From an uncultured bacterium (lineage in GTDB: Bacteria > Cyanobacteriota > Vampirovibrionia > Gastranaerophilales > Gastranaerophilaceae), in assembly GCA_949284985.1 (NCBI GenBank), contig CASDWY010000012.1:1-64000 (forward strand): a stretch of DNA of 64,000 nt, read 5' to 3'. Position numbers and translations under genes: made by a program. Below, piece by piece: positions 3,632-31,465 of the stretch. How positions within the stretch are numbered: position 1 is the first letter of the stretch; every line of letters starts with the position of its first letter. Under the pieces are notes generated by a model. The model saw only the letters and a program-made list of their open reading frames with translations, made no database searches and was not told the DNA's origin.

Positions 3632-3967
3632 TTATTTCCAGTAAACTTTGAAGTTTTCAATTTCTTCAAGAGTTTTGTGATAATCCCCCTTGAAACAAAG
3701 CGTCCTATCATCAATATAAAGATAAGACGGCAATTTTACATTAGTAACATCTTTAAAAAATTTATCTAAATTATTATTAATTAGCCATTTAGTTGCTAGC
3801 ATCAAGTTTCTTGATGTAAAAAGATACAATTCAGCACTTTGAGATAATGTTTCTAAAAACTCATAAGCTCCGACCTTAATTTCAGGAATATAATTTTCAT
3901 TGAAATTCTCTTTCCCATACTCATTTAGTACGCCGTCTAAATCTATAAGTATCTTTTTAGTATACAT
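3632..3967 (-). CDS. small HAD-superfamily phosphatase, copy 1
   Basis: A 111-aa protein with HAD motif I ILIDLDGVL (nucleophile Asp9, acid Asp11), a serine motif LYLFTSRN and a terminal acidic motif YIDDR. This is the minimal Rossmann core with almost no cap, like the phosphatase domains of polynucleotide 3'-phosphatases and orphan HADs; the substrate is unknown. The ATG at 3967 is used because homology to the copy at 30064-30399 begins there (MYTKKIL against MFTKKIL). It is divergent from two XRE regulators, and that arrangement is repeated around 30.4 kb. DNA of the two copies is nearly identical except for a short stretch just inside the 5' end. Confidence 0.8.
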   Translation of the reverse strand: MYTKKILIDLDGVLNEYGKENFNENYIPEIKVGAYEFLETLSQSAELYLFTSRNLMLATKWLINNNLDKFFKDVTNVKLPSYLYIDDRTLCFKGDYHKTLEEIENFKVYWK

Positions 3968-3983
3968 AAATATTAGCCTATTA

Positions 3984-4023
3984 TTGCTAGTAGTACTAGT
4001 TGTATATAATGCTAGTATAGCTA
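3984..4023 (+). promoter_or_regulatory. promoter and operator pair before the XRE genes
   Basis: TATAAT at 4005-4010 is a consensus -10 box. Overlapping it upstream is a perfect inverted repeat CTAGT-AGT-ACTAG (3987-3999), and downstream lies a second one, GCTA-GTA-TAGC (4011-4021). Paired palindromes around a -10 box immediately before an XRE gene suggest autorepression. The interval also holds the 5' end of the divergent HAD gene. Confidence 0.55.
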
Positions 4024-4034
4024 ACAATTTAAAA

Positions 4035-4250
4035 ATGGACAAGCCTTTTTTAGAAAAATTAGCAAAAAGATTAAAAAATTTAAGAGAAGAAAGAAAATTA
4101 ACACAAGATGACTTAGGCGTGAATGGAGTTTCCAGATCAATGATTAGTCTGCTTGAACTTGCCAAAACAGACGTTACCGTCACTAAGTTAAAAATTATAG
4201 CTGACAACTTGGGACTTGAAGTTAAGGATTTGTTTGACTTTAAAGATTAA
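4035..4250 (+). CDS. XRE-family regulator A1
   Basis: A 71-aa helix-turn-helix protein: LAKRLKNLREERKLTQDDLGVNGVSRSMISLLEL is a Cro/C1-type HTH filling the first 55 residues, ending in LEVKDLFDFKD. The ATG at 4035 begins the conserved domain; no Shine-Dalgarno precedes it and the predicted transcript start from the -10 box is only about 18 bases upstream, so the leader is very short. Its stop overlaps the start of the next XRE gene (TAATG), implying coupled translation. It probably regulates itself and perhaps the divergent HAD gene; no toxin partner is obvious. Confidence 0.85.
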   Translation: MDKPFLEKLAKRLKNLREERKLTQDDLGVNGVSRSMISLLELAKTDVTVTKLKIIADNLGLEVKDLFDFKD

Positions 4251-4468
4251 TGATTATGGACAAGGTTTTATTACAAAAATTAGCAAATCGTATAAAAGAG
4301 TTGAGGAAATTATATAAGTACACTCAAGATGATTTAGCGGATTTAGCCCAAATTGCACGCTCTACTTTAGGGAATATTGAAACTGCTCAAAATGATGTAA
4401 CCTTTTCCAAATTAAACAAAATAGTAAAGGCTTTTAATCTAACATTAGCTGAATTTTTAAATTTTTAG
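4250..4468 (+). CDS. XRE-family regulator A2
   Basis: A 72-aa (70 if the second Met at 4256 is used) Cro/C1-type protein: IKELRKLYKYTQDDLADLAQIARSTLGNIETAQNDVTF is the HTH, and the tail FNLTLAEFLNF is shared with the XRE protein at 30477. The start codon overlaps the stop of the preceding XRE gene. The tandem of two small XRE proteins beside a HAD phosphatase is duplicated at 30.0-30.9 kb. Regulatory target unknown. Confidence 0.85.
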   Translation: MIMDKVLLQKLANRIKELRKLYKYTQDDLADLAQIARSTLGNIETAQNDVTFSKLNKIVKAFNLTLAEFLNF

Positions 4469-4509
4469 TTAGTCGTTAAATAAAAATGAACAGGATTTTT
4501 TTAGAAAAA

Positions 4510-4547
4510 GTACCAAAAGTTTTTTATTTTAAAAAAACTTTTGGTAC
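4510..4547. terminator. bidirectional terminator hairpin
   Basis: GTACCAAAAGTTTTTT (4510-4525) pairs with AAAAAAACTTTTGGTAC (4531-4547) across a five-base loop. T-runs on both strands make it suitable for ending both the XRE transcript and the convergent queD transcript. Confidence 0.85.
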
Positions 4548-4562
4548 ACAATATTGTCAAAA

Positions 4563-5129
4563 TTAATTTTTTCTATAACCGCATTTAGGGCAAACGCCAT
4601 CAGAATTTAATGAAATACCGCACAAAGGGCAACGAGCAAGTGTTTTTTGTACTTCATATTCTTCACTGGCAGCATTGACACCGCTTGTGAAAGTAATTTT
4701 AGATATATTTAATTTATCTTTTAACAAATCATAAACTATTTTTATCATACCTTCAACAGTCATTGTTTCTTTGGTAACGACAAGTCTGCAATCAGGATAA
4801 GCAGTAGCTAAATTAGTTTTGAAAGCGGCACCTTTCATTGTATTTTGTGGGGCGCCGTTTTTAATTCCTTGTTTTTCGTAAACCTCTAGAATTGCAGGCA
4901 AAAGTGGGTCATCTTCTCTTAAAATTGTTGCGTGGTCAAAGTTTTTTAACACGTCCCAAGCTGTTTTTTGAATTTCATTACAAGGGAAGACCATATTTAC
5001 ACCCATATTAATACTATCTTCTACTTCAATTGTCAAAACGCCGGTATGCCCATGTAAATACTGAGCTTCTCCTTTAAAACCATAAAATCTGTGTGCATAC
5101 TGCAAATCAAAAGTAGTAATTGATTTCAT
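4563..5129 (-). CDS. 6-pyruvoyl/6-carboxy-tetrahydropterin synthase family (QueD-like) with zinc-ribbon tail
   Basis: A 188-aa member of the PTPS/QueD fold: zinc-binding histidines are His13 (YAHRF) and the HGH pair His26/His28 (QYLHGHTG), and FDHATIL carries the later catalytic His. QueD makes 6-carboxy-tetrahydropterin for queuosine and other deazapurines. Two things are unusual. The residue four before HGH, a Cys in QueD and a Glu in PTPS-III, is Ala22 here. The protein also extends about 60 residues beyond usual length, ending in a four-cysteine zinc ribbon (CPLCGISLNSDGVCPKCG, about 167-184). The precise reaction is therefore open. It stands alone, convergent with the XRE genes; AAAAAGGAG precedes the ATG. 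Confidence 0.85.
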   Translation of the reverse strand: MKSITTFDLQYAHRFYGFKGEAQYLHGHTGVLTIEVEDSINMGVNMVFPCNEIQKTAWDVLKNFDHATILREDDPLLPAILEVYEKQGIKNGAPQNTMKGAAFKTNLATAYPDCRLVVTKETMTVEGMIKIVYDLLKDKLNISKITFTSGVNAASEEYEVQKTLARCPLCGISLNSDGVCPKCGYRKN

Positions 5130-5316
5130 AAATTTCTCCTTTTTAAGTAATAATCAATATATTTTGGATCTTAATTGTTTTACAAATACTATCAATATTA
5201 TTCAACTTAGTCAATATACTCTAGGCTAAAAATTTTAATTGGAATTTTGAATGAAAGATAGATTACAGAAGAATAAGATTTCGAAGAATTTAGAGCAGAC
5301 CTTTTGGGTAAAAGAA

Positions 5317-5484
5317 AAAACTGGAAAACGTACTTAGAGGAAGATTTTTGGCTGTCATCATTATAAAAAATATAATGATGTAGTACTCCTGCAAAAAATC
5401 TTTAACCACTCCTCACCATCAGTAACACTCCGCTACATTGATATCTAATAAGACACAATTGATGAAAGTTATATGAGGTTTTAG
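5317..5484 (+). pseudogene. remnant of a tyrosine recombinase C-terminus
   Basis: Translated with stops left in place, the segment reads KTGKRT*RKIFGCHHYKKYN and on through LLQKIFNHSSPSVTLRYI, then two stops, then DTIDESYM. This matches residue for residue the C-terminal half of the recombinase at 14995-15534 (KIGTHTLRKTFGYHHYKKYN and so on, including the HSS and RYI active-site region). It is directly upstream of the first restriction-modification pair, as the intact gene lies upstream of the second. The flanking 5130-5316 interval shows no other gene. Confidence 0.85.
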
Positions 5485-5561
5485 TAGAGTGATAGAAACG
5501 CTTTACAATTCACCACAATAAGAATTTTATGCTAATATAGACATAATAGATAGGAGTAATT

Positions 5562-7925
5562 ATGGCTTTAAAACTGGAAGTGCAGATTGATGGTAATAAA
5601 ATTTATTCTCCATTAAGAGATAAATGGCTTGTGTTAACACCGGAAGAACAAGTTCGACAAAATTATATTTGTCGATTGGTAAATGTTTACGGATATAGCC
5701 TTGAACAAATGGACGAAGAATTAAAAGTTAATAATTCGCACAGAGGTCAAGGAAAAGCCAGAGCAGATATTGTTATTTGGAAATCTAAAGAAGATAAACA
5801 AAAAAACAAAGCAGCTTTTATTGTAATCGAGTGCAAAGCCGAAACCGTTAAAATTCAACAGCAAGATTATTATCAAGGTGCAAACTACGCTGCTTGGTCT
5901 GGTGCGAGTTTCTTTGTAACGACTAACACTAAGGAAACTAAATTCTTTAGAGTTGATAAAGATTCTATGCCCAAAGATTTGGATGAAATTATTGATATTC
6001 CAAATGCTTCAATAATCAATGACCAAAAGAAGATTGATAAATTATTATCTCAAACTAAGGCTTTTTCCAGAGATGAATTTGCAAAACTGCTTTTTAAGTG
6101 TCATTGCATTATTCGAAACAATGACAAACTTTCTCCAGAAGCCGCATTTGATGAAATAAGCAAAATCTTATTTATGAAAATAAGATATGAACGTAATCCG
6201 GATGAAGATGTATTATTCTCTTTAGAAAAATTTCAAAAAGATGAAAGACATTTTGAAAAAAATATTAAAAAGCACTTACCGTTAGAAGCTCAAATACCTT
6301 ACATGCAATATTTGTTTAAAGCAACAAAAGATGAGTTTGCAGACGATAAGTTATTTGAACCTTATGAAACAATTAAAATTAAACAATATAGCTTTGAGCA
6401 AATTGTAAAAGAACTTGAAAAATACAACCTTTCAGCAACATCTGATGATGTTAAAGGTATAGCATTTGAACAATTTTTAGGAACAACTTTTAGAGGTGAG
6501 CTAGGACAGTTCTTTACACCTCGTACAATAGTAGATTTCATGGTAGAAGTACTTGACCCTCAGGAAGGTGAAACTATTTGCGATCCTACCTGTGGTTCTG
6601 GAGGTTTCTTAATTAAGGCTTTTGAATATGTTAGAGATAAAATCGAAAAAGATGTTGAACAATATAAAAAAGATTTAAAAGCTAAACTTTTTAATGCAGA
6701 ATATGAAAAATTGTCAGAAAAAGAACAACTTGAAGTTAATGAAAAATATAGTGATTATATTAAAAAACTAACAATCGATATAAGTGTACCGAATAAAGCT
6801 TATCATAAACAATCTGAAGCAGAGAAAAATAGAAGAATCTCAAGACTGTCATCAAGCTGCATATATGGTACTGATGCAAATCCAAGAATGGCAAGAACAT
6901 CAAAGATGAATATGATAATGCACGGGGATGGTCATGGCGGAGTTCATCACCACGATGGTTTAATCAACGTAAATGGAATTTTTGAAAATAGGTTTGATGT
7001 AATTCTAACAAATCCACCTTTTGGAGCAAGAGTTGAAAAAAATCAAACTTTAACCTCTACTGATATTGATATACCTATAAAATTAGATTTATCAAACAAA
7101 AATGATGAACAGATAAAGGAACAGATAAACTCAATAGACAATGTTCAGTTAAAAACAAAATTATTGCATTATTATGAACGTTATGGAATTGAATATTTGC
7201 AAAAATTAAATCAATTGAATGACGATATTGATAAAAAACAAAAAGTTCTCGATAGGTTTAAATTAGGTAAAGTAAGTGGCTTAACAGAAGTTCTATTTAT
7301 GGAAAGATGTTTAAATCTTCTAAAACCTGGTGGCAGAATGGGAATTGTACTTCCCGAAGGAGTTTTAAATAATTCCAATTTGCAAAAAGTTAGAGATTTC
7401 TTTGAATCAAGAGCAAAAATTCTTTTAATTACATCAATCCCACAAGATGTATTTATAGCTTCCGGTGCAACTATAAAACCAAGTTTACTCTTTTTTAAAA
7501 AGTTTACGAAAGAAGAAGAAAAACAATACAATGATATTGTAAATCAAGTAAAAAAAGAAATTGATGATAAATATAAAATTGAAATATTGGAGATTGATAA
7601 CCAACTTTCTAATGATAAAAAAGCTCATCAAAAAGCTTTAAAAGAAATTGAAAAACGTAAAGAACAGGAATTTGAAACAACAGGTCGGGAAAAAATTAAA
7701 GAACTTTTCGACTACCAAATTCCAATAGTTCAAGTTGAAAAAGCAGGTATAACAACAACTGGTGCACCATGTGAAAATGAACTTGTAGATGTTGCTAATG
7801 AATTTAGAACATATCGTCAAGAAAATAATTTATGGCAAGCTAATAAATTAGATGTTTCATACAAGCTTGTAAACAATAACTTGGTGCGAGTAATAAACGG
7901 TGAGGAACAAGTTATTGATGAATAG
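5562..7925 (+). CDS. BcgI-like fused endonuclease-adenine methyltransferase subunit, system 1
   Basis: A 787-aa bifunctional protein. Residues 1-150 resemble the HsdR N-terminal nuclease: RADIVIW with Asp69 and IVIECKAE with Glu90-x-Lys92 form a PD-(D/E)XK site. From about residue 290 comes an N6-adenine methylase: GQFFTPRTIVDFMVE, SAM motif DPTCGSGGF (about 340) and catalytic NPPFG (about 484), then a long helical tail. Fusion of a nuclease to the methylase with a separate specificity gene and no HsdR translocase is the BcgI (type IIB) plan. Its last eight bases overlap the specificity gene (ATGAATAG), so the two are translated together. A recombinase remnant lies just upstream. Confidence 0.85.
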   Translation: MALKLEVQIDGNKIYSPLRDKWLVLTPEEQVRQNYICRLVNVYGYSLEQMDEELKVNNSHRGQGKARADIVIWKSKEDKQKNKAAFIVIECKAETVKIQQQDYYQGANYAAWSGASFFVTTNTKETKFFRVDKDSMPKDLDEIIDIPNASIINDQKKIDKLLSQTKAFSRDEFAKLLFKCHCIIRNNDKLSPEAAFDEISKILFMKIRYERNPDEDVLFSLEKFQKDERHFEKNIKKHLPLEAQIPYMQYLFKATKDEFADDKLFEPYETIKIKQYSFEQIVKELEKYNLSATSDDVKGIAFEQFLGTTFRGELGQFFTPRTIVDFMVEVLDPQEGETICDPTCGSGGFLIKAFEYVRDKIEKDVEQYKKDLKAKLFNAEYEKLSEKEQLEVNEKYSDYIKKLTIDISVPNKAYHKQSEAEKNRRISRLSSSCIYGTDANPRMARTSKMNMIMHGDGHGGVHHHDGLINVNGIFENRFDVILTNPPFGARVEKNQTLTSTDIDIPIKLDLSNKNDEQIKEQINSIDNVQLKTKLLHYYERYGIEYLQKLNQLNDDIDKKQKVLDRFKLGKVSGLTEVLFMERCLNLLKPGGRMGIVLPEGVLNNSNLQKVRDFFESRAKILLITSIPQDVFIASGATIKPSLLFFKKFTKEEEKQYNDIVNQVKKEIDDKYKIEILEIDNQLSNDKKAHQKALKEIEKRKEQEFETTGREKIKELFDYQIPIVQVEKAGITTTGAPCENELVDVANEFRTYRQENNLWQANKLDVSYKLVNNNLVRVINGEEQVIDE

Positions 7926-9243
7926 TCGTGCTTTTTCATATCTGAATTTTATTCACTTTTCACAGCTTAATAAATGGTATGTAAGTTGTTATATTAATCC
8001 TCATATTATAAAGAGTAAATACAAACTTGTTTCTCTTGAGAAGCTGATGAAACCCTATAAAAAATTAATTAAAAAGAATGACTATAAAGGTGATGTTCCA
8101 ATTATTGAAAAAATATCTTTTAAGGATGGAAAAATCCATTATCGGAAAGAATTTAAGACTGGAATGAATCTATATGAATTAAAACCAAAACAATTATTGG
8201 TTTCGAAAATAAATTTTCACCAAGGTGCTTTGTCAATAGCTGATGGCATTATTACAAATTGTTCAACGCATTATCAACCTTATGAGGTCGATTATTCTTC
8301 TGTTTTATCTGATTATTTGGTATTTGTGATAAGAAGCAATAAATTTCAACAATATTTGTCTTATTTGCGTGCAGATGGGATAAAGAATGAAGCAACATAT
8401 GATTTTATAAAAACATTAAAAATACCCTTACCTACATTAGAAAAGCAAAAAGAAATTGTAGATAGATACAATGAAAAAATCAAACTTGCAGAAGAACAAG
8501 AAAAAGAAGCTCAAAATCTTGAACAAGAAATCGATCAGTATATATGTGAAATATTAGGCATTAAGATTCAAAATCAATTAGAACAAAATAAAATAAGCTA
8601 TCTTAATTTTACATCATTAAAGAAATTATCTAGGTGGGATGTTTATAACAATAAAAATCAAGTATTATCAACCAAATATAATTTTGGTAAATTAAAAGAT
8701 ATTATTATCGGGAAACCACTTTATGGAGCTGGAGAAAAAGGAATTAATAGAAAAACTGATGTTAGATATATAAGAATTACAGATATTAATGAAGACGGAA
8801 GTCTTAATAATGATGTAATATCAGCTGAAAATGTAGACGAAAAATATCTATTAAAAGCAAATGATTTTTTAATTGCCCGTTCTGGTAATACTGTTGGAAA
8901 AACTTTTTTGTATAAAGAGAAGTTTGGGAAATGCATTTATGCGGGTTATTTAATTAAATTTACATTAAATTTGCAAAAAATAATCCCAGAATATTTGCTA
9001 TATTATACAAAATCAACAGCGTATAAATCTTGGATAAATTCAAATCAAAGAGCCAATGCTCAGCCAAATATTAATAGTAATGAATATTTGAATAGTCCAA
9101 TAATAATACCTGAAATACAAATACAACAAAAATTAGTTGAAACAATTTCTCTTAAAAAAGAGAGAATTCACAATTTAAAGGAAATTTCGGAGCAAAATCG
9201 CCAACTTGCCCAAGAAGAATTTGAAAAGGAGCTGTTTGAATAG
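7918..9243 (+). CDS. specificity subunit (HsdS/BcgIB-like), system 1
   Basis: A 441-aa type I-style S subunit with two target-recognition domains. The first spans about 10-170 (LNKWYVSCYINPHIIKSKYK ... LRADGIKNEATYDFIKTLKI) and is followed by a coiled-coil spacer (RYNEKIKLAEEQEKEAQNLE). The second runs from about 230 (LSRWDVYNNK ... VRYIRITDINEDG, DFLIARSGNTVGKTF) and ends in another coiled coil (LKEISEQNRQLAQEEFEKEL). Each TRD would read one half of a bipartite target. The ATG at 7918 overlaps the end of the methylase gene. It works with the 787-aa subunit; TRD identity cannot be turned into a DNA target by eye. Confidence 0.85.
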   Translation: MNSRAFSYLNFIHFSQLNKWYVSCYINPHIIKSKYKLVSLEKLMKPYKKLIKKNDYKGDVPIIEKISFKDGKIHYRKEFKTGMNLYELKPKQLLVSKINFHQGALSIADGIITNCSTHYQPYEVDYSSVLSDYLVFVIRSNKFQQYLSYLRADGIKNEATYDFIKTLKIPLPTLEKQKEIVDRYNEKIKLAEEQEKEAQNLEQEIDQYICEILGIKIQNQLEQNKISYLNFTSLKKLSRWDVYNNKNQVLSTKYNFGKLKDIIIGKPLYGAGEKGINRKTDVRYIRITDINEDGSLNNDVISAENVDEKYLLKANDFLIARSGNTVGKTFLYKEKFGKCIYAGYLIKFTLNLQKIIPEYLLYYTKSTAYKSWINSNQRANAQPNINSNEYLNSPIIIPEIQIQQKLVETISLKKERIHNLKEISEQNRQLAQEEFEKELFE

Positions 9244-9305
9244 TGCTAGAATCAAAAATATTCTAGATTCAATTAATGTTTGTATTATTTATTGAGAGTG
9301 ATTTT

Positions 9306-9485
9306 ATGGCTCATATGTTGAACTATCAATCTAAACAACTTTTAGAAATAGCAAAAAGAGGGGTTGAAATTGCAATAGAGCAAGATGAAGATATTGCAAC
9401 AAGTTGGATTAATCAAGAATTGAAGAAAATAGGAGTTGATTTTTCAAAAGAATTTTTACAGAGCAAGAAAAATAGTCATAGCTGA
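9306..9485 (+). CDS. small helical protein downstream of RM system 1
   Basis: A 59-aa protein (MAHMLNYQSKQLLEIAKRGV...), charged and helical, without a recognised motif. The inner ATG at 9306 is chosen over an upstream in-frame codon because the leader then contains GAGAGTG. It follows the specificity gene by 62 bases on the same strand, so it may be co-transcribed. Its TGA stop is the first part of a structured repeat element (9481-9573), the same relation seen after two transposition genes near 28 kb. Confidence 0.5.
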   Translation: MAHMLNYQSKQLLEIAKRGVEIAIEQDEDIATSWINQELKKIGVDFSKEFLQSKKNSHS

Positions 9486-9573
9486 TTTTCGGTAGGGCGA
9501 TGCGAGGCTTGACGAGCAAGCCCATAAGGTGTCGGGAAGCTGAGAACTTTCCGACACCCCGAATAATCCAAGA
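9481..9573 (+). repeat. structured repeat element E4
   Basis: It begins at the stop codon of the 59-aa gene with GATTTTCGGTAGGG, contains GGTGTCGG...CCGACACC as an internal hairpin (about 9529-9558), and ends CCGAATAATCC. The outer arms GATT/TTCGG and CCGAA/AATC pair. It is homologous to E3 (27351-27446, opposite strand) in all conserved blocks while hairpin loops differ. See E1 and E2 for the shorter relatives. Confidence 0.75.
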
Positions 9574-9690
9574 GAAGAAAAGACCCCTACATCTTAATAC
9601 TAAAAACCAGCCTCAATCGCGCTGTCTGTTTGATTTTTTATTAAATTTTCCCCGTCTCAATGTCCCAGAAACCTATTACCCAGAAACCTA
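9574..9690 (+). repeat. partial copy of the 210-bp repeat
   Basis: About 100 bases (AGAAAAGACC ... GTCTCAATGTCCCAGAAACC) match the second half of the tandem repeat units at 31026-31444. The last part repeats CCCAGAAACCTA twice. It has an open frame in one direction, but the sequence is better explained as a repeat. Confidence 0.75.
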
Positions 9691-9710
9691 CTAATTGGAA
9701 AGGACTATTT

Positions 9711-9755
9711 TTGCAATAAAAAAGAAGTCAATGATGACTTCTTTTTAAATGGTGG
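9711..9755. repeat. direct repeat copy 1 (terminator plus tRNA 3'-end-like sequence)
   Basis: AAAAAGAAGTCA-ATGA-TGACTTCTTTTT (9719-9746) followed by AAATGGTGG. The same block occurs at 31518-31554 and at 33995-34031, where it is the terminator and CCA end of the tRNA-Ile gene. It marks the left end of the first cassette. Confidence 0.8.
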
Positions 9756-9873
9756 TGCAGAAGTTACAAAGTTAGAACTTATAATCAATAAATTTATTGA
9801 AAATGTTCGCACTTTTGAACTGTTTGAACTTGGCCGAATGATTGATTGTATAAATTTGAGAAAAGTTGCCTAG
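9718..9873 (+). CDS. left-end small reading frame L, copy 1
   Basis: The frame NKKEVNDDFFLNGGAEVTKL ... ELGRMIDCINLRKVA ends at 9873 and is 75-85 percent identical to the one at 31526-31672. Most base differences fall at third codon positions (GTT/GTC, CGC/CGT, GGC-CGA/GGT-AGA, GCC/GCT), which suggests protein-level selection. No ATG, GTG or TTG starts it here, and its first codons lie inside the terminator-like direct repeat. It may be a decayed gene or rely on an upstream start that is restored when the cassette is rearranged. Function unknown. Confidence 0.4.
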   Translation, partial: KKEVNDDFFLNGGAEVTKLELIINKFIENVRTFELFELGRMIDCINLRKVA

Positions 9874-9925
9874 TGTCATATGAGTAAACAGTGTAAAAAT
9901 TTTTATTTCGATGTATTTATATGAT

Positions 9926-10372
9926 ATGACTAATGATGATAAATTTAAAATAAATTTTACTAATAAAGAATGTATCGACATACTTGAGGCATTTTATTGG
10001 GGGACAAAAAAAATTTGTCCATATTGCAATTCTGAGAATCATAGTTTAAGAATAATAAAAAACAGAGAAATTAATATATATCATTGTAACAACTGTAACA
10101 CTGATTATACAGTTTTAGTTAATACAATATTTCAAAATACTAAATTACCGTTAACAAAGTGGTTTGAAACGATTTTATTAACTACACAATCAACAAAAAA
10201 AATTTCCGCAAGACTTTTGGCACATAAAATATGCGTAACAAAAGATACAGCATTAAGATTAATAAAAAATGTTGAAAATTTTGATGCAAAAGAGGAGTTT
10301 ATTCAAATACTGGAAGAAAGAACTAAAAAAGAAAGGATAATCAATGACCAAAAAACAAGAAAAACAAACTGA
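9926..10372 (+). CDS. zinc-ribbon protein resembling IS1595-type transposase N-terminus (cassette 1 cargo)
   Basis: A 148-aa protein with a four-cysteine ribbon, CPYCNSE...YHCNNCNTDY, followed by VLVNTIFQNTKLPLTKWFET. This pattern is typical of the N-terminal domain of IS1595/ISXO2-family transposases, where it binds the end of the element. The DDE catalytic domain is absent and the remainder (SARLLAHKICVTKDTALRLIK) looks like a helix-turn-helix, so it is probably a stand-alone DNA-binding protein. A start at 9911 is also possible. Its 3' end overlaps the P63C gene by 29 bases, so the two are one unit. Confidence 0.7.
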   Translation: MTNDDKFKINFTNKECIDILEAFYWGTKKICPYCNSENHSLRIIKNREINIYHCNNCNTDYTVLVNTIFQNTKLPLTKWFETILLTTQSTKKISARLLAHKICVTKDTALRLIKNVENFDAKEEFIQILEERTKKERIINDQKTRKTN

Positions 10373-11306
10373 AACATTAAAAGCCCTTTATCGTGGCAAA
10401 TTACCTATTGGTGGTGTTGAATTAGATTGTGCCGTTCTGAATGATAATACTAGAATTTTAACTACTTCATCTATATTTCAAGCCTTTAAGCGTGGATATA
10501 GTAAAGGTTGGTATAGAATAGAACGAAAAATTAAAGTTGAAAATGAATTAAAAAAATATTTCCCCGAATATAATTTGATGCAACCTCCCATTTTTCTTGA
10601 TAGTTTATCGTTAATTCCCTTGGTAAATCAAGATTTATTTAGTTTGATGCAACCAATTAAATACTTAGACAATAAACAAGAAAAAGAAGGATACAATGCT
10701 AATGTTTTGGTAGAACTATGTAATTTATATTTAGAGGCAAGAAGAACAGGTGTTTTAAATCATCAACAAAAGCATTTAGCAGAACAAGCTGAAATTTTAC
10801 TTGCATCATTCGCAAAAGTTGGTATTATTGCCCTTATTGATGAAGCAACTGGTTTTCAATATGATAGAAAGCATGATGCTTTACGTATATTATTAGAACA
10901 ATACATTGCAGACGGTTTGCAAAAATGGGTCAAAAAATTTCCTGATGAGTTTTTTACACAACTAGACAAGTTATATCAGAACGAGAAAACAACATCAAGA
11001 ACAAGACCTAAATATTATGGCTTATTTATAAATAAATATATTTATGAACCGATTGAAAATGGATATGTAAAACAAGAATTGGACAAAATGAATATAAAAG
11101 AAGATGGAAAAAGAAAAGCTCGTTTTCATCAATGGTTAACTGAATTTGGCAATGGCCAATTAACATTACAAATCGGGCGAGTAATGGGGGTTATGGAAAT
11201 TTCAACAAGTATTAGGACATTCAAGGAAAAAATTAACCGACAAAAAAAATTGGCAATTCAGCCTGAACTTTTCGACACTGAAGAATTCAACAAAGAGCAA
11301 GTATAA
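10344..11306 (+). CDS. P63C-domain protein (cassette 1 cargo)
   Basis: A 320-aa protein containing the P63C domain: AEQAEILLASFAKVGIIALI, then DEATGFQYDR and LEQYIADGLQKWVKKFPDEF (about residues 145-210). P63C proteins are found on phages and mobile elements near antirepressor-type genes; biochemical role unknown. The first 60 residues (ALYRGKLPIGGVELDCAVL ... RILTTSSIFQAF) fit the N-terminal region common in this family. AAAGGATAATCA precedes the ATG at 10344, inside the end of the zinc-ribbon gene. It lies between the conserved left and right ends of the cassette. Confidence 0.8.
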   Translation: MTKKQEKQTETLKALYRGKLPIGGVELDCAVLNDNTRILTTSSIFQAFKRGYSKGWYRIERKIKVENELKKYFPEYNLMQPPIFLDSLSLIPLVNQDLFSLMQPIKYLDNKQEKEGYNANVLVELCNLYLEARRTGVLNHQQKHLAEQAEILLASFAKVGIIALIDEATGFQYDRKHDALRILLEQYIADGLQKWVKKFPDEFFTQLDKLYQNEKTTSRTRPKYYGLFINKYIYEPIENGYVKQELDKMNIKEDGKRKARFHQWLTEFGNGQLTLQIGRVMGVMEISTSIRTFKEKINRQKKLAIQPELFDTEEFNKEQV

Positions 11307-11363
11307 AAATAGTGCTATTTTATGTTCTCCTTTCTAGTATTGAAATAGAAAGGAGAACATCTT

Positions 11364-11594
11364 ATGACAACAAAGAAACCAAATTTTATTGTTAAATTTG
11401 ACAATTCTAACCCAACAGAGGAAGAAAGAGCAAAAGCTATTTGTGATTTAATTTTATGTTTAATGAAATTATCAGCAAAGCAAGAGGCTAAGAAGTTTAA
11501 AACTAAAAATGAGCAAAAAGAATACGAACAAAATTTCTCTAATTTCGCCTCAAAAGCCTTATGTGACAATAATTTTGACGATAAAAAGCAATAA
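11364..11594 (+). CDS. right-end small protein R, copy 1
   Basis: A 76-aa charged protein (MTTKKPNFIVKFDNSNPTEE...), with AGGAGAACATCTT before the ATG. It is about 93 percent identical to the protein at 33649-33876. In both places it is the last gene of a cassette and is followed by the same tail. No recognised domain; the middle (AICDLILCLMKLSAKQEAKK) is an amphipathic helix. Conservation at the end of cassettes with different cargo suggests a role in cassette maintenance or movement, but this is inference. Confidence 0.75.
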   Translation: MTTKKPNFIVKFDNSNPTEEERAKAICDLILCLMKLSAKQEAKKFKTKNEQKEYEQNFSNFASKALCDNNFDDKKQ

Positions 11595-11686
11595 AATTAT
11601 GTTCGAACTTCTAAAACTCGCATTATTATTGTGTTTTGACGATTGATTGTTTTTGGTGTCTGCCTTGTTTGAACAGGTGCAGAGCG
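11595..11686 (+). repeat. right-end tail of cassette 1, truncated
   Basis: AAATTATGTTCGAACTTC through CTTGTTTGAACAGGTGCAGAGCG matches 33877-33972 downstream of the second R gene. The match stops at 11686, just before the terminator/CCA block found in the other copies, so this end has been cut. Confidence 0.75.
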
Positions 11687-21035: not shown

Positions 21036-21254
21036 ATGATTGAATTAGGCAAAAAATACAGACTTAAAAAGATCAAAGGTTTTAAGAGCTCTGATAATGA
21101 GTATTACAAAGTAATTAGCTTCTACAATTTCGACACTGTAATTTGTGAAAACGCTTGCGGAGAAAGATTTGTATTTATGAAAGAGTTTTTAATTGACCCA
21201 GATAAGCCTGATGAAATCTATTCAGATTTGATATTTGAAAGGAAAAAACAATGA
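21036..21254 (+). CDS. small protein of unknown function
   Basis: A 72-aa protein (MIELGKKYRLKKIKGFKSSD...), probably a small beta fold with a KVISFYNFDTVICENACGERFVF core resembling SH3-like or phage/plasmid accessory proteins; not identified. AAGAGGTAACA precedes the start. Its stop overlaps the ATG of the next (broken) gene, AACAATGA at 21248-21255, so they form one small operon with the frames at 21251 and 21509. Confidence 0.6.
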   Translation: MIELGKKYRLKKIKGFKSSDNEYYKVISFYNFDTVICENACGERFVFMKEFLIDPDKPDEIYSDLIFERKKQ

Positions 21255-21460
21255 CAGAAAAAGACTATGCACTTTATGGAACAAAGGTTTTGAATTTAAA
21301 AACATAAGAAATTGGCTTGCTGATTTGTATTTGGAAAAACAAATTTGCAGATGCTGAAATAGATTACGCAACTTGTGTTGATAAGCAAGGCAAAAAATAC
21401 AATATCGAACTTGATAATATAAGAGAGTTTGAAGATGATTTTTGCAAAGCGAAAAGTTGA
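21251..21460 (+). pseudogene. small gene split by one in-frame TAA
   Basis: The frame opens with MTEKDYALYGTKVLNLKT, meets TAA at 21305-21307, then continues without further stops as EIGLLICIWKNKFADAEIDY and beyond to a TGA at 21458. The second part is a plausible compact beta protein, and the frame is the same on both sides, so one base substitution (for example AAA or GAA to TAA) is the simplest cause. The start overlaps the preceding gene's stop. Function unknown; readthrough cannot be excluded. Confidence 0.65.
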
Positions 21461-21508
21461 AGCAAATGTGAAACTTGTGAGCCTGCATCTTAAATGGAGC
21501 ATAGCGAA

Positions 21509-21709
21509 ATGAAAGTGAAAAATAAACTAACAAGAGAAACCTTAGAAATAACTTATCCTGAATTTAGAAAAAAGTTTGCAAAAGAACTACAAACAGCTTT
21601 TGAAAGTTATCGCAGGACACAATTAAATAAGTATTCTTATAACTTTAACGATGATAACTCAATGGAATACAATTTCTATAACAAAGGAGCGAATAAAAAA
21701 CCAAACTAG
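21509..21709 (+). CDS. small helical protein
   Basis: About 66 aa (MKVKNKLTRETLEITYPEFR...), with a helix EFRKKFAKELQTAFESYRRT and an asparagine-rich end. An in-frame start at 21494 (MEHSE) is equally possible. Its stop codon is inside a palindromic terminator. It ends the small-gene run that began at 20672. No known family. Confidence 0.5.
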   Translation: MKVKNKLTRETLEITYPEFRKKFAKELQTAFESYRRTQLNKYSYNFNDDNSMEYNFYNKGANKKPN

Positions 21710-21722
21710 TTTGGGCTTTTTT
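21695..21722 (+). terminator. terminator overlapping a stop codon
   Basis: CCAAACTAGTTTGG (21701-21714) is a perfect palindrome flanked by AAAAAA before and GCTTTTTT after. The TAG of the preceding gene lies inside the stem. Confidence 0.65.
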
Positions 21723-22683: not shown

Positions 22684-23943
22684 CTAAATAATACCGATAA
22701 TAGCTTTTAATTTTTTCACAATAATATTTTGAATATTGTTATCTTGCAAATCATTATGTTTTAAATTTATCGTACAAAAATCAATATGGTAATTATTTTC
22801 AGAATTATTCAATTGATAATCTTTTATATCTGGCTCTACATCTTCAAATTGAGGATATAATAAAATTGCTCTGTTATATTTGTGCAACAGGCAATATGTT
22901 GTAACTTGATAGATATCAGCACTTGAAATGTCATCAAATTTTTTGAATTTTTTGTACTTAGTATCAATAATAACCTGTGGATTTTGGATAAAAATATCAA
23001 CTTTTGTATCTCTTCTGGTTTCTTTATCCCTAACTAAAAGACGCTTTGTTTTTTGTGTTTTTGGCTGGCATTCAGGAATTTTTCGTTTTATTAATTCAAA
23101 AATAAATTCTTCAAATAATTTGTTCATATCCCAAACAAGTGTAATATTTTCAAATTTGTTTTTAGATAAATCAACACTTGTCTGTTCTACAAACATTTTT
23201 GCTAGGTTAAATGATTTTTTGAAAAGTTCTTGATTTCTTGTCAGTTTAATTTTCCTGACTTTAAATTTATCAAATCTGACAAAAGAAATATCTGAATAAT
23301 AATTAATAATAAATTTTAAAGTTTTTTTATTGTAGTTACTGTGAGAAATATTATACAAGCAGGTTGAAACAAATAAAAACAGTTGATTTAGAAGATTATT
23401 TTCTGAAAATTCATCGTACTCACAATAAAATTTTGCTTGGTTTGTGCAGTTATAACGGATGTTTTCGCTAAATTTTATTTTACCTTTTAAGTAATTCAAA
23501 TTTTCTTCTTCTCTAACATATCTTTTAGGCGTTAAGCGCTTTAAAGCCTCAAATAAAGAGGTCGCAAATTCTCTAATCAAAATTTCAATAAATGGATTTT
23601 TTTCGGTTGATAATTTTGCAGTGTTATTTGTTTTAATATCAAGATTTTTTGTGTAAGAAAGCATAAAAATAAGATTTTTTAGAATTATGCTTCGTTCAGC
23701 TTCTGAAATTTCACCATCATTATTTGCATCTTCTGAAAGGAGTTTAGGCAATATTTCTAAATGCAAGTTTTTATATTTGATAATGCCAACCCAAGATTTA
23801 GTTTTTATACCATGTCTTGTAATGTTTAAAGCTGAATCTAAGTTCTGGCATTTCAAATAAGCTTGAAGTTTATCTAGATTGCAACTTCCAAGCTTATTTT
23901 CTTTAATTTCAGAATATTCTTTAATAGTAATAGATTCTCGCAT
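22684..23943 (-). CDS. mcrC: McrC, nuclease subunit of McrBC-type restriction
   Basis: A 419-aa McrC protein. Its N-terminal half contains the beta-rich McrB-binding region (ARHGIKTKSWVGIIKYKNLHLEILPKLL), a helical middle, and the C-terminal PD-(D/E)XK site DTKVDIFIQNPQVIIDTKYKKF (Asp in KVDIF, Asp-x-Lys in DTKYK). McrC associates with the McrB ring and cuts DNA with modified cytosines in known systems. The start overlaps the mcrB stop (TAATG), the standard arrangement. Confidence 0.92.
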   Translation of the reverse strand: MRESITIKEYSEIKENKLGSCNLDKLQAYLKCQNLDSALNITRHGIKTKSWVGIIKYKNLHLEILPKLLSEDANNDGEISEAERSIILKNLIFMLSYTKNLDIKTNNTAKLSTEKNPFIEILIREFATSLFEALKRLTPKRYVREEENLNYLKGKIKFSENIRYNCTNQAKFYCEYDEFSENNLLNQLFLFVSTCLYNISHSNYNKKTLKFIINYYSDISFVRFDKFKVRKIKLTRNQELFKKSFNLAKMFVEQTSVDLSKNKFENITLVWDMNKLFEEFIFELIKRKIPECQPKTQKTKRLLVRDKETRRDTKVDIFIQNPQVIIDTKYKKFKKFDDISSADIYQVTTYCLLHKYNRAILLYPQFEDVEPDIKDYQLNNSENNYHIDFCTINLKHNDLQDNNIQNIIVKKLKAIIGII

Positions 23944-26333
23944 TAATTTTCCTGTTTAAATTTATCCTGCTTTAGTGCACCAACAAAATCTTTAACTTCG
24001 TTAGGTGTTTTGAATTCATACATAGAATCTTCACACTCATTTTTTAATTCTTCTGGAATATTAATTTCTTTTATAAAGCCTGGAATAACTAATTTTAATT
24101 TTTCCCAATCACAATAAAAATATTCATTCAATAGAGGAATAATTTCACTAAACCAGATTTCTTTCAAAATACTAATGTCTGCGTTTACATATTTTGTATT
24201 TATAAAATAACTGTGACCTATTTGATGGTCTCTGTCTAGCAAAATTTTAATTTTTGTATTTAGTTTTTCAAAAATAGATTGAAAACTACATCCAAAATCC
24301 GCAACCAATTCAGGTCTTGGCATCATTTCAACGAATTTGAAACGACGACGAAGAGCAATATCTATACTTGCAATAGAACGGTCAGAAGTGTTCATTGTGC
24401 CTAAAATGTATAAATTACTTGGTACTCCAAATTTTGATTTTGTATATGGTAAGGTTACCAATAATTGTTCTTTGTCGACTTTTGTATTTTCAAAATTTCG
24501 TTCTTTATTTGGACAAACTCGTTTGTTTGTTTCTATTAAAGTTATTAGCTCTCCAAATATTTTTGAAATATTACCTCTATTTATTTCGTCAATAATTAAT
24601 AAGTATTTGTTATCAGGGTCAGAGTTTGCCTGTTGACAAATTTCTTTAAAAATACCTCTATTATATTCGTATGATATTGTTGAAGAGTCATCATTTACAT
24701 CAATTTTTGGTTTTATACCTTCAACAAACTCTTCATATGAATATGATTGATGAAATGTAATAAATTTATAAAAATCTTCAATTTTTCTTGTATTACTTGG
24801 GGCTTTGTATTGTGTAATTTGGTCAGTTAGATTTTCTTCTACATATTTAATACCATCCTCAGTTAAATACCATTCTGAATTTTCATTTTTTTCAAAAATA
24901 AAAGGAGCTTGTCTGTTTGTATAATTTACAGTTTTGCAATTTTCAGATGTATGAATTTGCATTTGTGCCCACAATGCAGCTCTTAGGTTTTTATTTTCTC
25001 TAGTAAGTGCAAATGCTTTAATAATTTTTTGATTCATTAAATCAGAAACTTTATATTTGTTTTGTTTGCCATTTAAATACATAGAAATTGCAATAGTAGT
25101 ATACCAGCTTAAGTCTTTTACTATGTCATTTAGTTTTTGTTCTTCACTATTTGTATTTAATCCAGGATTTTCTCTCAAAAGATTTTGAATATATTCTTGA
25201 ATGCTATATGTTTTTCCTGTTCCTGGAGGTCCATATAAGATTTGGTTTAATGATTGTTCCTTTAAATTATTATCCATTGCTATATCCTCACTATTATTTT
25301 TTTGAGCTACATTATGATACCACCAGATTAAATCTTGACAATCTAATAAGTTATTTTCAAAACCTAAAAAATTATTCATTTCTGGTCTTAAAATATCATT
25401 ACAGTATTTAATCCATTGTACATATTTGTCCTCATTTTTAGTTGTAATATTTATATTTAAATTTTTACTAAAAGTGTTATATGGGTTTATTCGTGTATAT
25501 AGAAGATACTTTGTAGGATCTTTCAATGCTAAAAAAAATGATGCAGATTCTACCCCAACATTAATTCTATCTTTACTCTTCCAATTTGGGGAATGAATTA
25601 AAATTTCTTTAATAGTTTTTAAAAACAGATTAATTCTTGATATTAAGTCTTCATTTTCGTTAAATAATTCAACTAAAATATTTTTAAATTCACTTAGATG
25701 AAATTCACAAAGATACCTGAAAACACTAGTTTTCCACATAAAAGGTACAAAATTTGGAGAACCTAGGTTTTTAATTTTTTCTTCAAGGTTGTCCAAATTA
25801 TCAAAAATGTGATTATGTTGTTCAAAGTAATCATATTTATATTGCTCTGTCCAGAACTGACTTTTCCTATAGTGATTGTATTGAATAATTATTTTTCTTA
25901 ATAAATCATTATTTACAGTACAATTAGTGATATTATCATTTTTAAAACGATCAATATATTTGCCTAAACTTGGGTCTATTTTTTCTATTATATCAATATG
26001 GGTATCAGGAATAGCATATAAATTTTTATTTGTGAATATCGTATCATAATCTGTTCTCAAATTATCATCTTTATTTAATTCAATATTGTCAATCTCATAT
26101 AATTTTTGTTTTGATGAATATGTGGAAGTTTTAATATGAGTTGTTATTATATTTTTTTCAGTTGTAGTATTATGATAAGCTAAATATTGTGTGATATTAT
26201 TTTTATCTTGCACCAACATAAACCATTTCTTACAAGTATTATAAAAACTTTCGTTTTCTATAATATATAGTTCATTTGTTTTGGCAGTAATAATTTTCCA
26301 ATTAACGCCAAATTTATTAATTATATTAACCAT
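23943..26333 (-). CDS. mcrB: McrB, AAA+ GTPase subunit with inserted winged-helix region
   Basis: A 796-aa AAA+ protein. Walker A LYGPPGTGKTYS is near 366-377, Walker B LLIIDEINRGNISKIFGELI near 575-595, the McrB-type TMNTSDRSIASIDIALRRRF sensor after it. Between Walker A and B about 120 residues (LNDIVKDLSWYTTIAISMYL ... WYLTEDGIKYVEENL) look like an inserted winged-helix domain. The N-terminal 350 residues (TKYLLYTRINPYNTF, LLDCQDLIWWY) form the target-reading module, unlike the E. coli cytosine-flipping domain. AAAAGGAG precedes the ATG. It lies 45 bases after the Mu-like operon on the same strand. Confidence 0.9.
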   Translation of the reverse strand: MVNIINKFGVNWKIITAKTNELYIIENESFYNTCKKWFMLVQDKNNITQYLAYHNTTTEKNIITTHIKTSTYSSKQKLYEIDNIELNKDDNLRTDYDTIFTNKNLYAIPDTHIDIIEKIDPSLGKYIDRFKNDNITNCTVNNDLLRKIIIQYNHYRKSQFWTEQYKYDYFEQHNHIFDNLDNLEEKIKNLGSPNFVPFMWKTSVFRYLCEFHLSEFKNILVELFNENEDLISRINLFLKTIKEILIHSPNWKSKDRINVGVESASFFLALKDPTKYLLYTRINPYNTFSKNLNINITTKNEDKYVQWIKYCNDILRPEMNNFLGFENNLLDCQDLIWWYHNVAQKNNSEDIAMDNNLKEQSLNQILYGPPGTGKTYSIQEYIQNLLRENPGLNTNSEEQKLNDIVKDLSWYTTIAISMYLNGKQNKYKVSDLMNQKIIKAFALTRENKNLRAALWAQMQIHTSENCKTVNYTNRQAPFIFEKNENSEWYLTEDGIKYVEENLTDQITQYKAPSNTRKIEDFYKFITFHQSYSYEEFVEGIKPKIDVNDDSSTISYEYNRGIFKEICQQANSDPDNKYLLIIDEINRGNISKIFGELITLIETNKRVCPNKERNFENTKVDKEQLLVTLPYTKSKFGVPSNLYILGTMNTSDRSIASIDIALRRRFKFVEMMPRPELVADFGCSFQSIFEKLNTKIKILLDRDHQIGHSYFINTKYVNADISILKEIWFSEIIPLLNEYFYCDWEKLKLVIPGFIKEINIPEELKNECEDSMYEFKTPNEVKDFVGALKQDKFKQEN

Positions 26334-26378
26334 ACTTCACTCCTTTTCTACAAGGATAGCACAAAAATTTTGGTGAAT

Positions 26379-27337: not shown

Positions 27338-27350
27338 GTTGTCCTTTCGT

Positions 27351-27446
27351 CTTGGATTATTCGGGGTGTCGGCAGAGTAACGTCTGACCGACACCTTACG
27401 GGCTGGGTTCGCTTTCGCTCACACGGCACCCTACCGAAAATCCGCT
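27351..27446 (-). repeat. structured repeat element E3 in the operon junction
   Basis: In gene direction it starts at the TGA of the ATPase gene, runs GCGGATTTTCGGTAGGG, an inner hairpin with a GAAA loop, CCCGTAAGG, a second hairpin GGTGTCGG...CCGACACC, and ends CCGAATAATCCAAG just before the ribosome site of the next gene. Arms GATT/TTCGG and CCGAA/AATC close it. It is the homolog of E4 (9481-9573) with different loop sequences. Confidence 0.75.
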
Positions 27447-28127: not shown

Positions 28128-28137
28128 TTTATCCTTT

Positions 28138-28195
28138 CTTGGTTGCTCGCAATAAACGGGTATGGTTTCACCTTAGACCCTCTGCTCGCAATCCG
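28138..28195 (-). repeat. structured repeat element E1 in the operon junction
   Basis: In gene direction it begins right after the TAG of the transposase: CGGATTGCGAGC, AGAGGG, a small GGT-GAA-ACC hairpin, CCCGTTTA, GCGAGCAACC, then AAGAAAGG of the next gene. Outer arms GG-TTGC and GCAA-CC pair. E2 (30963-31025) has the same core blocks AGAGGG and CCCGTTTA but different, fully complementary arms. Confidence 0.7.
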
Positions 28196-30007
28196 CTATT
28201 CATATAAAAGTTTGTACTCCTTTGTTTGTTTAAATTCTGCAATCCAAGTGTCGCTTGGGTTATGTTTTATTAAATATTCGTACTTTTCTGAATTGTTTTT
28301 GAAAATCGGGAGTGATTTTTCTCCGTTGTTTATTTTTTGAACACCATTTGAACGAGGCTTGAACTTATTGTCACCCTGAACTTGTTTCAGGGTCTCTGGT
28401 GTTGCAGATTCTGAAATAAATTCAGAATGACATTCTAAAAATTTTATTTCATCGTTAGTCAATAATTTTTTAACTGAATTTATAGTTTTTCTTTTCAGTT
28501 TTTGTTGTTTTTGAATTTTTTGTTTGTAATCCTCTAAATCCTCAACCGTTCCTAAAAGCTTTGCCATCGGGTGGGTTTCTGTTACTCGCTCTGCTGTGCA
28601 TAAGTATTCACCTTTCGGGGTAAAAACTTTTACATTAGTTAGATCAAATAGGTTGTATTTTACTAAAACTTTTCCTCTCAGCCCGTATAGTCTTTCGTCA
28701 AAATAATCGCAGTTCAAGAACCTTACGCCGTTTCGCTGAATTGTTTTGACTTCAGTTGCCAACATCAAATCGTCAAGCAAGCTTTTATCAATATTCTGTT
28801 TATTTCGATTTTCTAAAACCTCTGCGATTGTCATATTCGGTGCATTTGTGCAGGGCTGAGAGTTCTTGAACTTAAGCCACACATCAATCATTTTCATTGT
28901 TTCTTCTATAGTTGGGATATAATCTTGGTGTAAGTTTTTATGAAATTTTTCGTTTCGTTTCAAGTATGCGGGTTTATTGATAATTGATGAGCCGACATAA
29001 CTTGGCATTAGCTTTTCAAAGCCTTCTTGAAATTCTTTGAAGAACCTCTCAATAACTTTTGACCTTGCATTATATGGTCTTGCAAATACCGTTTCAATCC
29101 CGAGTTTTGCATAAAGCCCATAAAAGCCTAATTCTCCAAATCCTTTGTCATCTGTAAAATACTTTGCTCTAAATGCTCTGCCGTTATCTTGATAGACAAT
29201 TTTCGGTATCATATCAAGGTTTATTATTGCGTTTCTTAGTGCACTTGCGATACATTGGGTGTTTTCTTCAAGCATAATTTCATAACCGACCAGTGCTGTT
29301 GATTTCCAGTCCAAAAATCCGACTAAAGTTGCTCGACAAGGCTTGCCCGTAAACGGATTAATCACTTGAAACGCAAGTTTGTGACCGTCTGCGACCAAAA
29401 TATCCCCAACATCAAGCAGGCTAGCGTCCCTTTTAATATATGGTTCGACTTTGTCTGAAAGTGCTTTTTCACCATCTCTAGCAAGCACCCATTTGTCGTA
29501 ATTATTGTCCTTAAACCATTTTGCGTAGCGTCTGAATGTAATATCTGCAGGTATGAAACTTTGACCTTGTTCTTTGAGCTTGTATTTAGTAAGTGCGATT
29601 GCTTTGCCGATACAAATTCTATTTGGGTGCAGGAGCAAGCCCATAAATATTTTGATTTCTTCATCTGTTAGACATGTTCTGTATTCATTCACAGAAACAT
29701 ATTTGTAATTAGGGATTAACCTTGTATAATCCTCTGTCCCGTCTAAACTGGCTTTCCAACGATGCAGGCTTCCTCGTGAGATTTTACCTAAAACACTGAA
29801 AAGGTAGGAATTTGAACTATTATGCAGTTTGACAAAATCATAGTCTGCTTGAAGTTTGTTTACTGCTTTACGGCGGAATTCCTGCCATTTGCGGATTAAA
29901 TCAAGTTTTGCAAGAGCATTTTGTTTTGCCTTCTCAGGGGTGTATTTGATTGTCTCAACTTGGTTTTTCATTGTCTCAAAATCCTTGTAATGCCTTGTGC
30001 AACACAT
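28196..30007 (-). CDS. Mu-type DDE transposase (MuA-like)
   Basis: A 603-aa transposase. The rve-type catalytic core has Asp in GDILVADGHKL, Asp in KIVYQDNGRAF and Glu in SKVIERFFKEFQ, followed by the beta-barrel C-domain (VRFLNCDYFDERLYGLRGKV). The N-terminal third is helical DNA-binding. It starts the leftward operon with the MuB-like ATPase. Two starts are possible (30007, or Met13 at 29971 with AAGGA upstream). Near the C-terminus a palindromic repeat inserts the peptide SEFISESATPETLKQVQG in frame. The element is probably a Mu-like transposon, not a phage, as no structural genes follow. Confidence 0.9.
   Translation of the reverse strand: MCCTRHYKDFETMKNQVETIKYTPEKAKQNALAKLDLIRKWQEFRRKAVNKLQADYDFVKLHNSSNSYLFSVLGKISRGSLHRWKASLDGTEDYTRLIPNYKYVSVNEYRTCLTDEEIKIFMGLLLHPNRICIGKAIALTKYKLKEQGQSFIPADITFRRYAKWFKDNNYDKWVLARDGEKALSDKVEPYIKRDASLLDVGDILVADGHKLAFQVINPFTGKPCRATLVGFLDWKSTALVGYEIMLEENTQCIASALRNAIINLDMIPKIVYQDNGRAFRAKYFTDDKGFGELGFYGLYAKLGIETVFARPYNARSKVIERFFKEFQEGFEKLMPSYVGSSIINKPAYLKRNEKFHKNLHQDYIPTIEETMKMIDVWLKFKNSQPCTNAPNMTIAEVLENRNKQNIDKSLLDDLMLATEVKTIQRNGVRFLNCDYFDERLYGLRGKVLVKYNLFDLTNVKVFTPKGEYLCTAERVTETHPMAKLLGTVEDLEDYKQKIQKQQKLKRKTINSVKKLLTNDEIKFLECHSEFISESATPETLKQVQGDNKFKPRSNGVQKINNGEKSLPIFKNNSEKYEYLIKHNPSDTWIAEFKQTKEYKLLYE
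28369..28433. repeat. palindromic repeat inserted in the transposase gene
   Basis: ACCCTGAA...TTCAGGGT and TTCTGAA...TTCAGAA form two hairpins within 65 bases. The translation, with ESATPETLKQVQGD, is the classic in-frame reading of dispersed palindromic elements known from many genomes. The reading frame is kept. Confidence 0.8.
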
Positions 30008-30399: not shown

Positions 30400-30428
30400 T
30401 TACAATAAGCCTCTTAAATTTCTTAAAT

Positions 30429-30937: not shown

Positions 30938-31138
30938 AAAATAAAATTGCACTTTTTTGCACTTCTCTTGTTTGTCGGCGTTAAACGGGCACGCTTCGCT
31001 TCAGCCCTCTGCCGACAAGCCGCTCTTGCACTGGGTTTAACTTCAAACACCAAGGCGATTTGAGCCTAATGTGGTTTTAAATTTTTGCAAATGGAGTGCA
31101 AAAGAGTGCAAAAAATGAGTATATGAGTGCAAGAAAAG
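30938..31138. repeat. cluster of GAGTGCAA-type short repeats
   Basis: TTGCACT occurs at about 30946, 30957 and 31026, and its complement AGTGCAA repeatedly at about 31096-31130 and again in the second 210-bp unit (about 31305-31345). The iteron-like spacing surrounds element E2. The 600-base interval 30900-31477 holds these repeats, E2 and the tandem units, and no convincing gene. Confidence 0.5.
30963..31025 (-). repeat. structured repeat element E2
   Basis: Read leftward: AGCGGC, arm TTGTCGGC, AGAGGG, hairpin with GCGAAGC, CCCGTTTA, arm GCCGACAA, then ACAAGAGAAG. The outer arms are perfectly complementary. It has the same core blocks as E1 with a different arm sequence. It is not next to a recognised gene stop. 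Confidence 0.7.
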
Positions 31139-31444
31139 ACCGGTACATCTCAATACTAAAAAACAGCCTCAATCGTGCTGTCTGTTTGATTTTTTATTAA
31201 AGTTTCTCTGTCTCAATGTCCCAGAAACCTATTAATTGCACTGGGCTTAACTTCAAACACATAGCCAATTTGAGCCTAATGTGGTCTTAAAAATTTGCAA
31301 ATGGAGTGCAAAAGAGTGCAAGAAAAGAGTACTTGAGTGCAAGAAAAGACCGGTACATCTCAATACTAAAAAACATCCTCAATCGTGCTGCCTGTTTGAT
31401 TTTTTATTAAATTTTCTCCGTCTCAATGTCCCAGAAACTTATTA
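31026..31444. repeat. tandem pair of about 210-bp repeats
   Basis: Unit 1 is 31026-31235 and unit 2 is 31236-31444; both begin TTGCACTGGG and end GTCTCAATGTCCCAGAAAC followed by CTATTA or TTATTA. A third fragment, CTCAATGTCCCAGAAACC, follows at 31445. Part of the unit recurs at 9574-9690. Each unit contains two to three GAGTGCAA motifs. It resembles the end of a mobile element or a replication or partition site. Confidence 0.8.
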
Positions 31445-31465
31445 CTCAATGTCCCAGAAACCTAT

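Follow-up and report, generated by a model that had tools for sequence, protein, structure and literature searches.

A probable miniature mobile element with a three-way junction fold in genomes of Candidatus Gastranaerophilales

Two copies of the element in the window

The window analysed here is a stretch of 64,000 nucleotides from an uncultured bacterium of the Gastranaerophilaceae (features in Table 1). Two collinear blocks, at 3632-11686 and 30064-33971, carry repeats that are 96%, 93% and 81% identical and follow the same order, as though two related islands had inserted next to each other; the second block ends beside a tRNA gene (34029-34102). On the reverse strand, a Mu/Tn7-like transposition operon (22684-30007) adjoins McrBC genes and encodes a Mu-transpos_C transposase, a TniB-like ATPase, an orphan 186-aa protein and a terminase-like helix-turn-helix protein. 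TniB relatives were found in 79 of 146 genomes of the family, some of them near-identical across genera.

The window holds two copies of one short element, E4 and E3, which point in opposite directions and are separated by about 17.8 kb. Both contain exactly the sequences GATTTTCGGTAGGG (9484-9497 on the forward strand in E4, 27429-27442 on the reverse strand in E3) and CCCCGAATAATCCAAGA (9557-9573, forward, and 27350-27366, reverse); for the latter, the chance expectation of matches with three mismatches or fewer is 0.05. To this extent the sequence-only reading of the region, which had noticed that E4 shares the flanks of the distant and oppositely oriented E3, was right. Its limits for E4 (9481-9573) were not, since the unit GC...AAGAG closes at 9574. 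Both copies fold far better than shuffled sequences, and a covariance model of the family, in whose training set both are included, gave 102.9 bits for E3 and 91.1 bits for E4 in the 64-kb window. No further copy of their class (class A) was scored in the genome to which the window belongs (2 matches, with 150 of 189 candidates scored). An Rfam scan of the window returned only tRNA at the gathering score, and the best match at E4, sroE (15.1 bits, E 0.58), lay below it.

Table 1. Coordinates of the element copies, their flanks and related empty sites in the window
Feature	Position	Strand	Support
'59-aa gene', predicted hsdS-like 3' fragment with its stop codon in E4	9306..9485	+	
E4, miniature element copy (GC...AAGAG), three-way junction fold	9481..9574	+	fold z -5.07, covariance model
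Island repeat (family D3) on the right of E4, elsewhere free of the element	9575..9682	+	
Empty form of the L058/L061 insertion site (GAT^TAC), 21364/21365	21355..21375	+	
Empty form of the site in the 77-aa gene that is filled in L050, L056, L179 and L235	21580..21605	+	
E3, further copy of the element (GC...AAGAC) at the junction of tniB with the gene that follows	27349..27445	-	fold z -4.13, covariance model
E2, smaller related element, class B-like (GCGGATTGC...GCAACC-AAGA), tnsB/tniB junction	28137..28196	-	
Class B element (GCGGCTTGTCGGC...GCCGACAAACAAGA) in an island repeat	30965..31023	-	class A model weak match, 14.2 bits, E 0.2
E4 target without the element, site 1 (gagtgcaagaaaagacc)	31125..31165	+	
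E4 target without the element, site 2	31335..31375	+	

E4 had been thought to start at the stop of a '59-aa gene'. In a search of the family, this gene was matched in two of 191 genomes, one of them the window's own. In L190, the other match, it corresponds to the C-terminus of a 468-aa ORF that closes with -KKIGVEL (-FQSKQLLEIAKRGVEIAIEQDENIATGWLNQELKKIGVEL), and no element follows. Since the 447-aa ORF upstream of the '59-aa gene' in the window matches Methylase_S, the 468-aa ORF can be called HsdS-like, and the '59-aa gene' is thus predicted to be no independent gene but the 3' fragment of an hsdS-like one. Nor was it found to belong to the transposon family with E4 always attached, its only other relative being without the element. 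Its TGA (9483-9485) falls inside E4 and exists because E4 reads AGCTGATT at the place where the family reads AGCGGATT, a G-to-T change that is seen in E4 alone among 36 aligned copies.

The island sequence that runs rightwards from 9575 recurs at 31131 and 31341, both times without the element. Among the collected copies, 22 have the island right flank and 21 of these have the island left flank as well, the exception being E4, and the eight nearest relatives of E4 (97.7-95.4% identical) all have the island right flank. A comparison of the left flank of E4 with degenerate island sequence was not significant (shuffle fractions 0.07 and 0.42). On the simplest reading of these sequences, E4 would be a resident copy that came with the island and then gained the hsdS tail by a rearrangement that replaced its left side. 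The case that had been built on E4 fails because the copy would belong to the island with its left side replaced; its position beside the '59-aa gene' is an incidental meeting. After the island repeat of E4, a fragment of an IS1595-type zinc-ribbon protein and a P63C-domain protein occupy 9911-11306.

Structure and spread of the element

E4 belongs to a family of miniature mobile elements in Candidatus Gastranaerophilales that have the plan 5'-GC GGATTTTCGGTAGGG-[variable hairpin 1]-GTAAGGTGTCGG..CCGACACC-CCGAATAATCC AAGAC and a length of about 77-97 nt. A regular expression detected 148 copies in the collected loci, of which 141 were kept after those with short flanks and one chance match had been dropped. 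GC precedes GGATT in 131 of the 141 and AAGA follows AATCC in the same number; the core measures 70-90 nt and varies mainly in hairpin 1.

RNAalifold folded 36 dereplicated copies into a three-way junction of 25 pairs, 10 of which show double-sided changes. The covariation score was 0.204 against 0.092 in shuffled alignments, none of 500 shuffles reaching the observed value, and 96.9% of the paired cells were compatible with pairing, compared with 30-60% when the structure was slid along the alignment. The signal comes from hairpin 2 and one pair of hairpin 1. In the outer stem GGATTTTCGG pairs with CCGAATAATCC, leaving the tips GC and AAGAC unpaired; this stem is near-invariant, in part by force, since the copies were collected by a pattern on it. 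A paired change in it was nevertheless seen by eye in a locus of the window's own genome (L003, GGATTTTGAC..GTCAATAATCC). Hairpin 1 is preceded by GTAG, itself a part of the collecting pattern, in 30 of the 36 copies, and hairpin 2 by GTAA in 27.

The element is matched in 176 of 383 genomes of the family. A class-wide search gave matches in 122 of 289 genomes, 121 of them in the family; G479, from another family of the order, has 13 matches. Copy numbers can be high, with 42 scored copies in G021, 32 in G130, 31 in G003 and 29 in G042, and in G103 eight copies all score exactly 95.1 bits, as expected if they had spread recently. By a pattern scan of contigs at least 118 stretches hold the element. 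Among the matches listed, the titles read Candidatus Gastranaerophilales, Melainabacteria, 'uncultured bacterium' or plain 'Bacterium', with the exception of one labelled Muribaculaceae and one labelled proteobacterium. No match was obtained in a search of viral contigs or in a similarity search of phage and plasmid records. We found no description of the repeat in the open-licence papers searched.

Tandem arrays with a spacing of 96 nt occur in five loci (L066, L083, L095, L135 and L164). Several of them terminate in an incomplete copy that abuts one common flanking repeat, so the compound of array and flanking repeat seems to spread as a unit.

Filled and empty insertion sites

Comparison of filled with empty sites showed GC...AAGAC inserted without target duplication, and the window itself holds the empty versions of three sites that are filled elsewhere. 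One of them lies in a 77-aa gene (within 21240-21710) whose family is present in 164 of 383 genomes, with up to eight copies per genome, and is a recurrent target of the element. In L050, L056 and L179 the element sits at one and the same nucleotide of this gene; L235 repeats L179. The inserted lengths of 97, 97 and 95 nt break the reading frame, and removal of GC...AAGAC restores one unbroken ORF in each case; a protein rebuilt in this way aligns over its whole length, with no stop, to a sequence in G283 at 100% identity. Identity of the three interrupted genes to uninterrupted copies is 90.5-94.8%, against only 86.6-88.7% among themselves, and on a tree of the gene copies at least two changes are forced. 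In L058 and L061 the element lies antisense within the gene just upstream, of which the window's copy has a stop codon. Removal at the RNA level, as by a self-splicing intron, or a translational bypass was at first suggested by in-frame, mostly synonymous divergence on either side of the insertion in L050, L056 and L179, the downstream halves of L050 and L056 showing a synonymous bias (17 vs 5 nt differences). This explanation was set aside as less likely because the interrupted copies are nearer to their uninterrupted relatives, the gene family is multicopy and the neighbouring gene carries an antisense element.

Target preferences were read from 34 distinct sites, some of them variants of one island site, which represent 122 copies with canonical ends and long flanks. 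The base at -1 is A in 24 of the 34 dereplicated sites and that at +1 a purine in 33. Many targets are other palindromic repeats, and others are copies of the element itself, in tandem, or coding sequence. The mean local folding energy of empty sites was -7.0 kcal/mol vs -4.2 in controls (p 0.017), and sites enclosed by at least five pairs were not enriched (13 of 28 vs 54% in controls), so that the preference for hairpins is only moderate.

In the transposition operon, E3 occupies a junction at which tniB and the next gene of relatives usually overlap by ATGA. In the unbiased set L011-L040 the element is present at 7 of 29 readable junctions (30 loci, one cut at the junction), and in an enlarged set, which is enriched for the element by the inclusion of loci brought in by the element itself, at 12 of 35. 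A tree of these 35 tniB rows needs eight gains or losses of the element, three of which are forced by well-supported branches, and between backgrounds in which tniB has diverged to 69-74% identity the elements still share 96-97%. This junction is not a clean case: besides the element, the filled alleles contain about 15 nt, made up of a ribosome-binding spacer plus a second ATGA, which are missing from the empty ones and not accounted for by precise insertion. At the tnsB/tniB junction, E2 is likewise present or absent among relatives.

The sequence-only reading had regarded the element as a mobile gene-end module rather than an operon-specific leader, and its two halves fared differently. The presence and absence at tniB junctions, together with a conservation that exceeds that of tniB, agree with mobility, and an operon-specific leader is ruled out by the dispersed copies. 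Attachment to gene ends is not the rule. In a survey of 54 dereplicated sites, based on simple ORF calls and not on a trained gene finder, few coincided with the stop codon of a gene read in the direction of the element (tniB in two cases, a rimP/nusA-like junction and the hsdS fragment) and most were intergenic, in either orientation; further sites lie in palindromic repeats, in the element itself and within genes. The rimP/nusA-like case is a diverged copy (L065:1503-1591) between genes that we take, from sequence motifs, to be rimP and nusA, presumably a core operon. In L148 the element precedes a gene that we call terminase-like on the same kind of evidence, and in both loci a start codon follows the element by 16-21 nt. 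No gene was found to recur beside the copies except those of the transposon operon, a pilin-like family and the short ORFs of the arrays themselves.

Mode of movement and relation to known repeats

We consider it probable that E3 and E4 represent a miniature mobile DNA element which is non-autonomous and is inserted precisely, without duplication, by an enzyme acting in trans. The mobile unit would be GC-[GGATT ... AATCC]-AAGAC, whose outer stem would join the two ends while two inner hairpins, each after GTAR, would project from the junction. The enzyme would place its cuts precisely in front of the first G and behind the final C, and the unit would be joined into the target, mostly between an A and a purine, with target bases neither duplicated nor deleted; preferred targets would be used again, and a copy within an operon would be co-transcribed as a folded spacer. 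We infer that movement may occur at the DNA level, with an enzyme that recognises one folded strand in the manner of REP or IS200/IS605-type transposition.

An alternative, which we regard as possible but doubtful, would make the element one of the REP/REPIN or IS200/IS605-MITE kind, in which a Y1 (HUH) transposase reads the two GTAR-tagged hairpins as ends and moves single-stranded DNA. The motifs before the hairpins, the position of both hairpins on one strand and the lack of target duplication are in its favour, and Y1 proteins of about 180 aa occur in 50 of the 146 genomes. However, the GTAG motif belongs to the collecting pattern, and the element, with carrier status taken from the 383-genome match table, does not follow these proteins: it is carried by 29 of 50 genomes with Y1_Tnp and by 48 of 96 without (p 0.39). 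No Y1 match was found in the window's genome, in G000 or in the copy-rich G103 and G021, no copy of the element was present at the four Y1 loci examined, and the 5' flank has no fixed tetranucleotide, only the A at -1. The IS110 family gave a similar result. Its genes are rare (8 of 146 genomes), the element is carried by 5 of the 8 genomes with them and 72 of the 138 without (p 0.72), and none of the eight copy-rich genomes in the 146-genome set has one. Since neither Y1 nor IS110 tracks the presence of the element, the mobiliser was not found among them. When longer sequences bounded by the ends of the element were sought, mostly chance matches and class B elements came up. The list of copy-rich and copy-free genomes offers a route to the missing enzyme.

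It is unlikely that the copies have no mobility of their own and travel only as passengers of larger elements (the island, the Mu/Tn7-like transposon and the palindromic repeats) assisted by homologous recombination. Passage of this kind would account for the shared flanks of the island copies, for the compound arrays with fixed junctions and for transposon copies common to several genera, but not for clean filled and empty pairs in coding DNA and in several unrelated targets, nor for one insertion site used in three backgrounds. Even less credible is a functional RNA leader or spacer held by selection at operon junctions, which the covarying fold and the tniB, rimP/nusA-like and terminase-like sites might suggest, as most sites are intergenic in either orientation or within repeats and most homologous tniB junctions are without the element.

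The precisely inserted mobile element that we favour has several partial counterparts. MITEs such as NEMIS, RUP and ERIC are miniature, non-autonomous and self-folding, and are found near genes and in operons. The element shares these features but inserts without the target duplication of a DDE-type MITE, and its ends, though paired in the outer stem, do not match as inverted repeats at the tips; no transposase bounded by such ends was identified. Cyanobacteria, the sister phylum, reportedly have very small mobile repeated elements (SDR) of 21-27 nt, ascribed to Elhai et al. 2008. They resemble the element in being tiny, structured and mobile, and no enzyme is known to move them.

NEMIS, RUP and ERIC are named in PMC3733652. 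GTAG REPs and REPINs, which are mobilised by RAYT transposases (PMC3733652, PMC3116915), are likewise small dispersed palindromic DNA; they form subfamilies specific to a genome, cluster in tandem and occasionally lie within genes. Their hairpins are flanked by GTAG, which also precedes hairpin 1 of the element, where it was, however, part of the collecting pattern. While a REP or REPIN is a hairpin of 20-40 bp or an inverted doublet of it, the element has about 77-97 nt, with an outer stem that closes over two equally oriented hairpins, conserved GC and AAGAC ends and no association with RAYT that we could find. IS621 (IS110 family) and IS1397 target REP palindromes (PMC1525189), much as the element inserts into other palindromic repeats; they are full insertion sequences with a transposase, whereas the element encodes no protein. 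This mobile DNA is abundant in an uncultured order of gut bacteria, and its duplication-free insertion, the many filled and empty pairs and the copy-rich genomes make the movement of very small repeats directly testable.

A second group, class B, comprises 14 further elements of 57-64 nt, among them that at 30965-31023, with the ends GCGG[A/C]TT...CAAG and a different closing stem; E2 has class B ends. A genome search with a class B query gave matches in 80 of 239 genomes, which is not a count of class B since about half of the query is island sequence. Tentatively, class A (E3, E4) and class B (E2, 30965-31023) might form a superfamily united only by the ends GCGG.TT...CAAG and a closing stem, which a so far unrecognised enzyme reading the folded strand would move site-specifically and without duplication, re-using single nucleotides in diverged gene copies.
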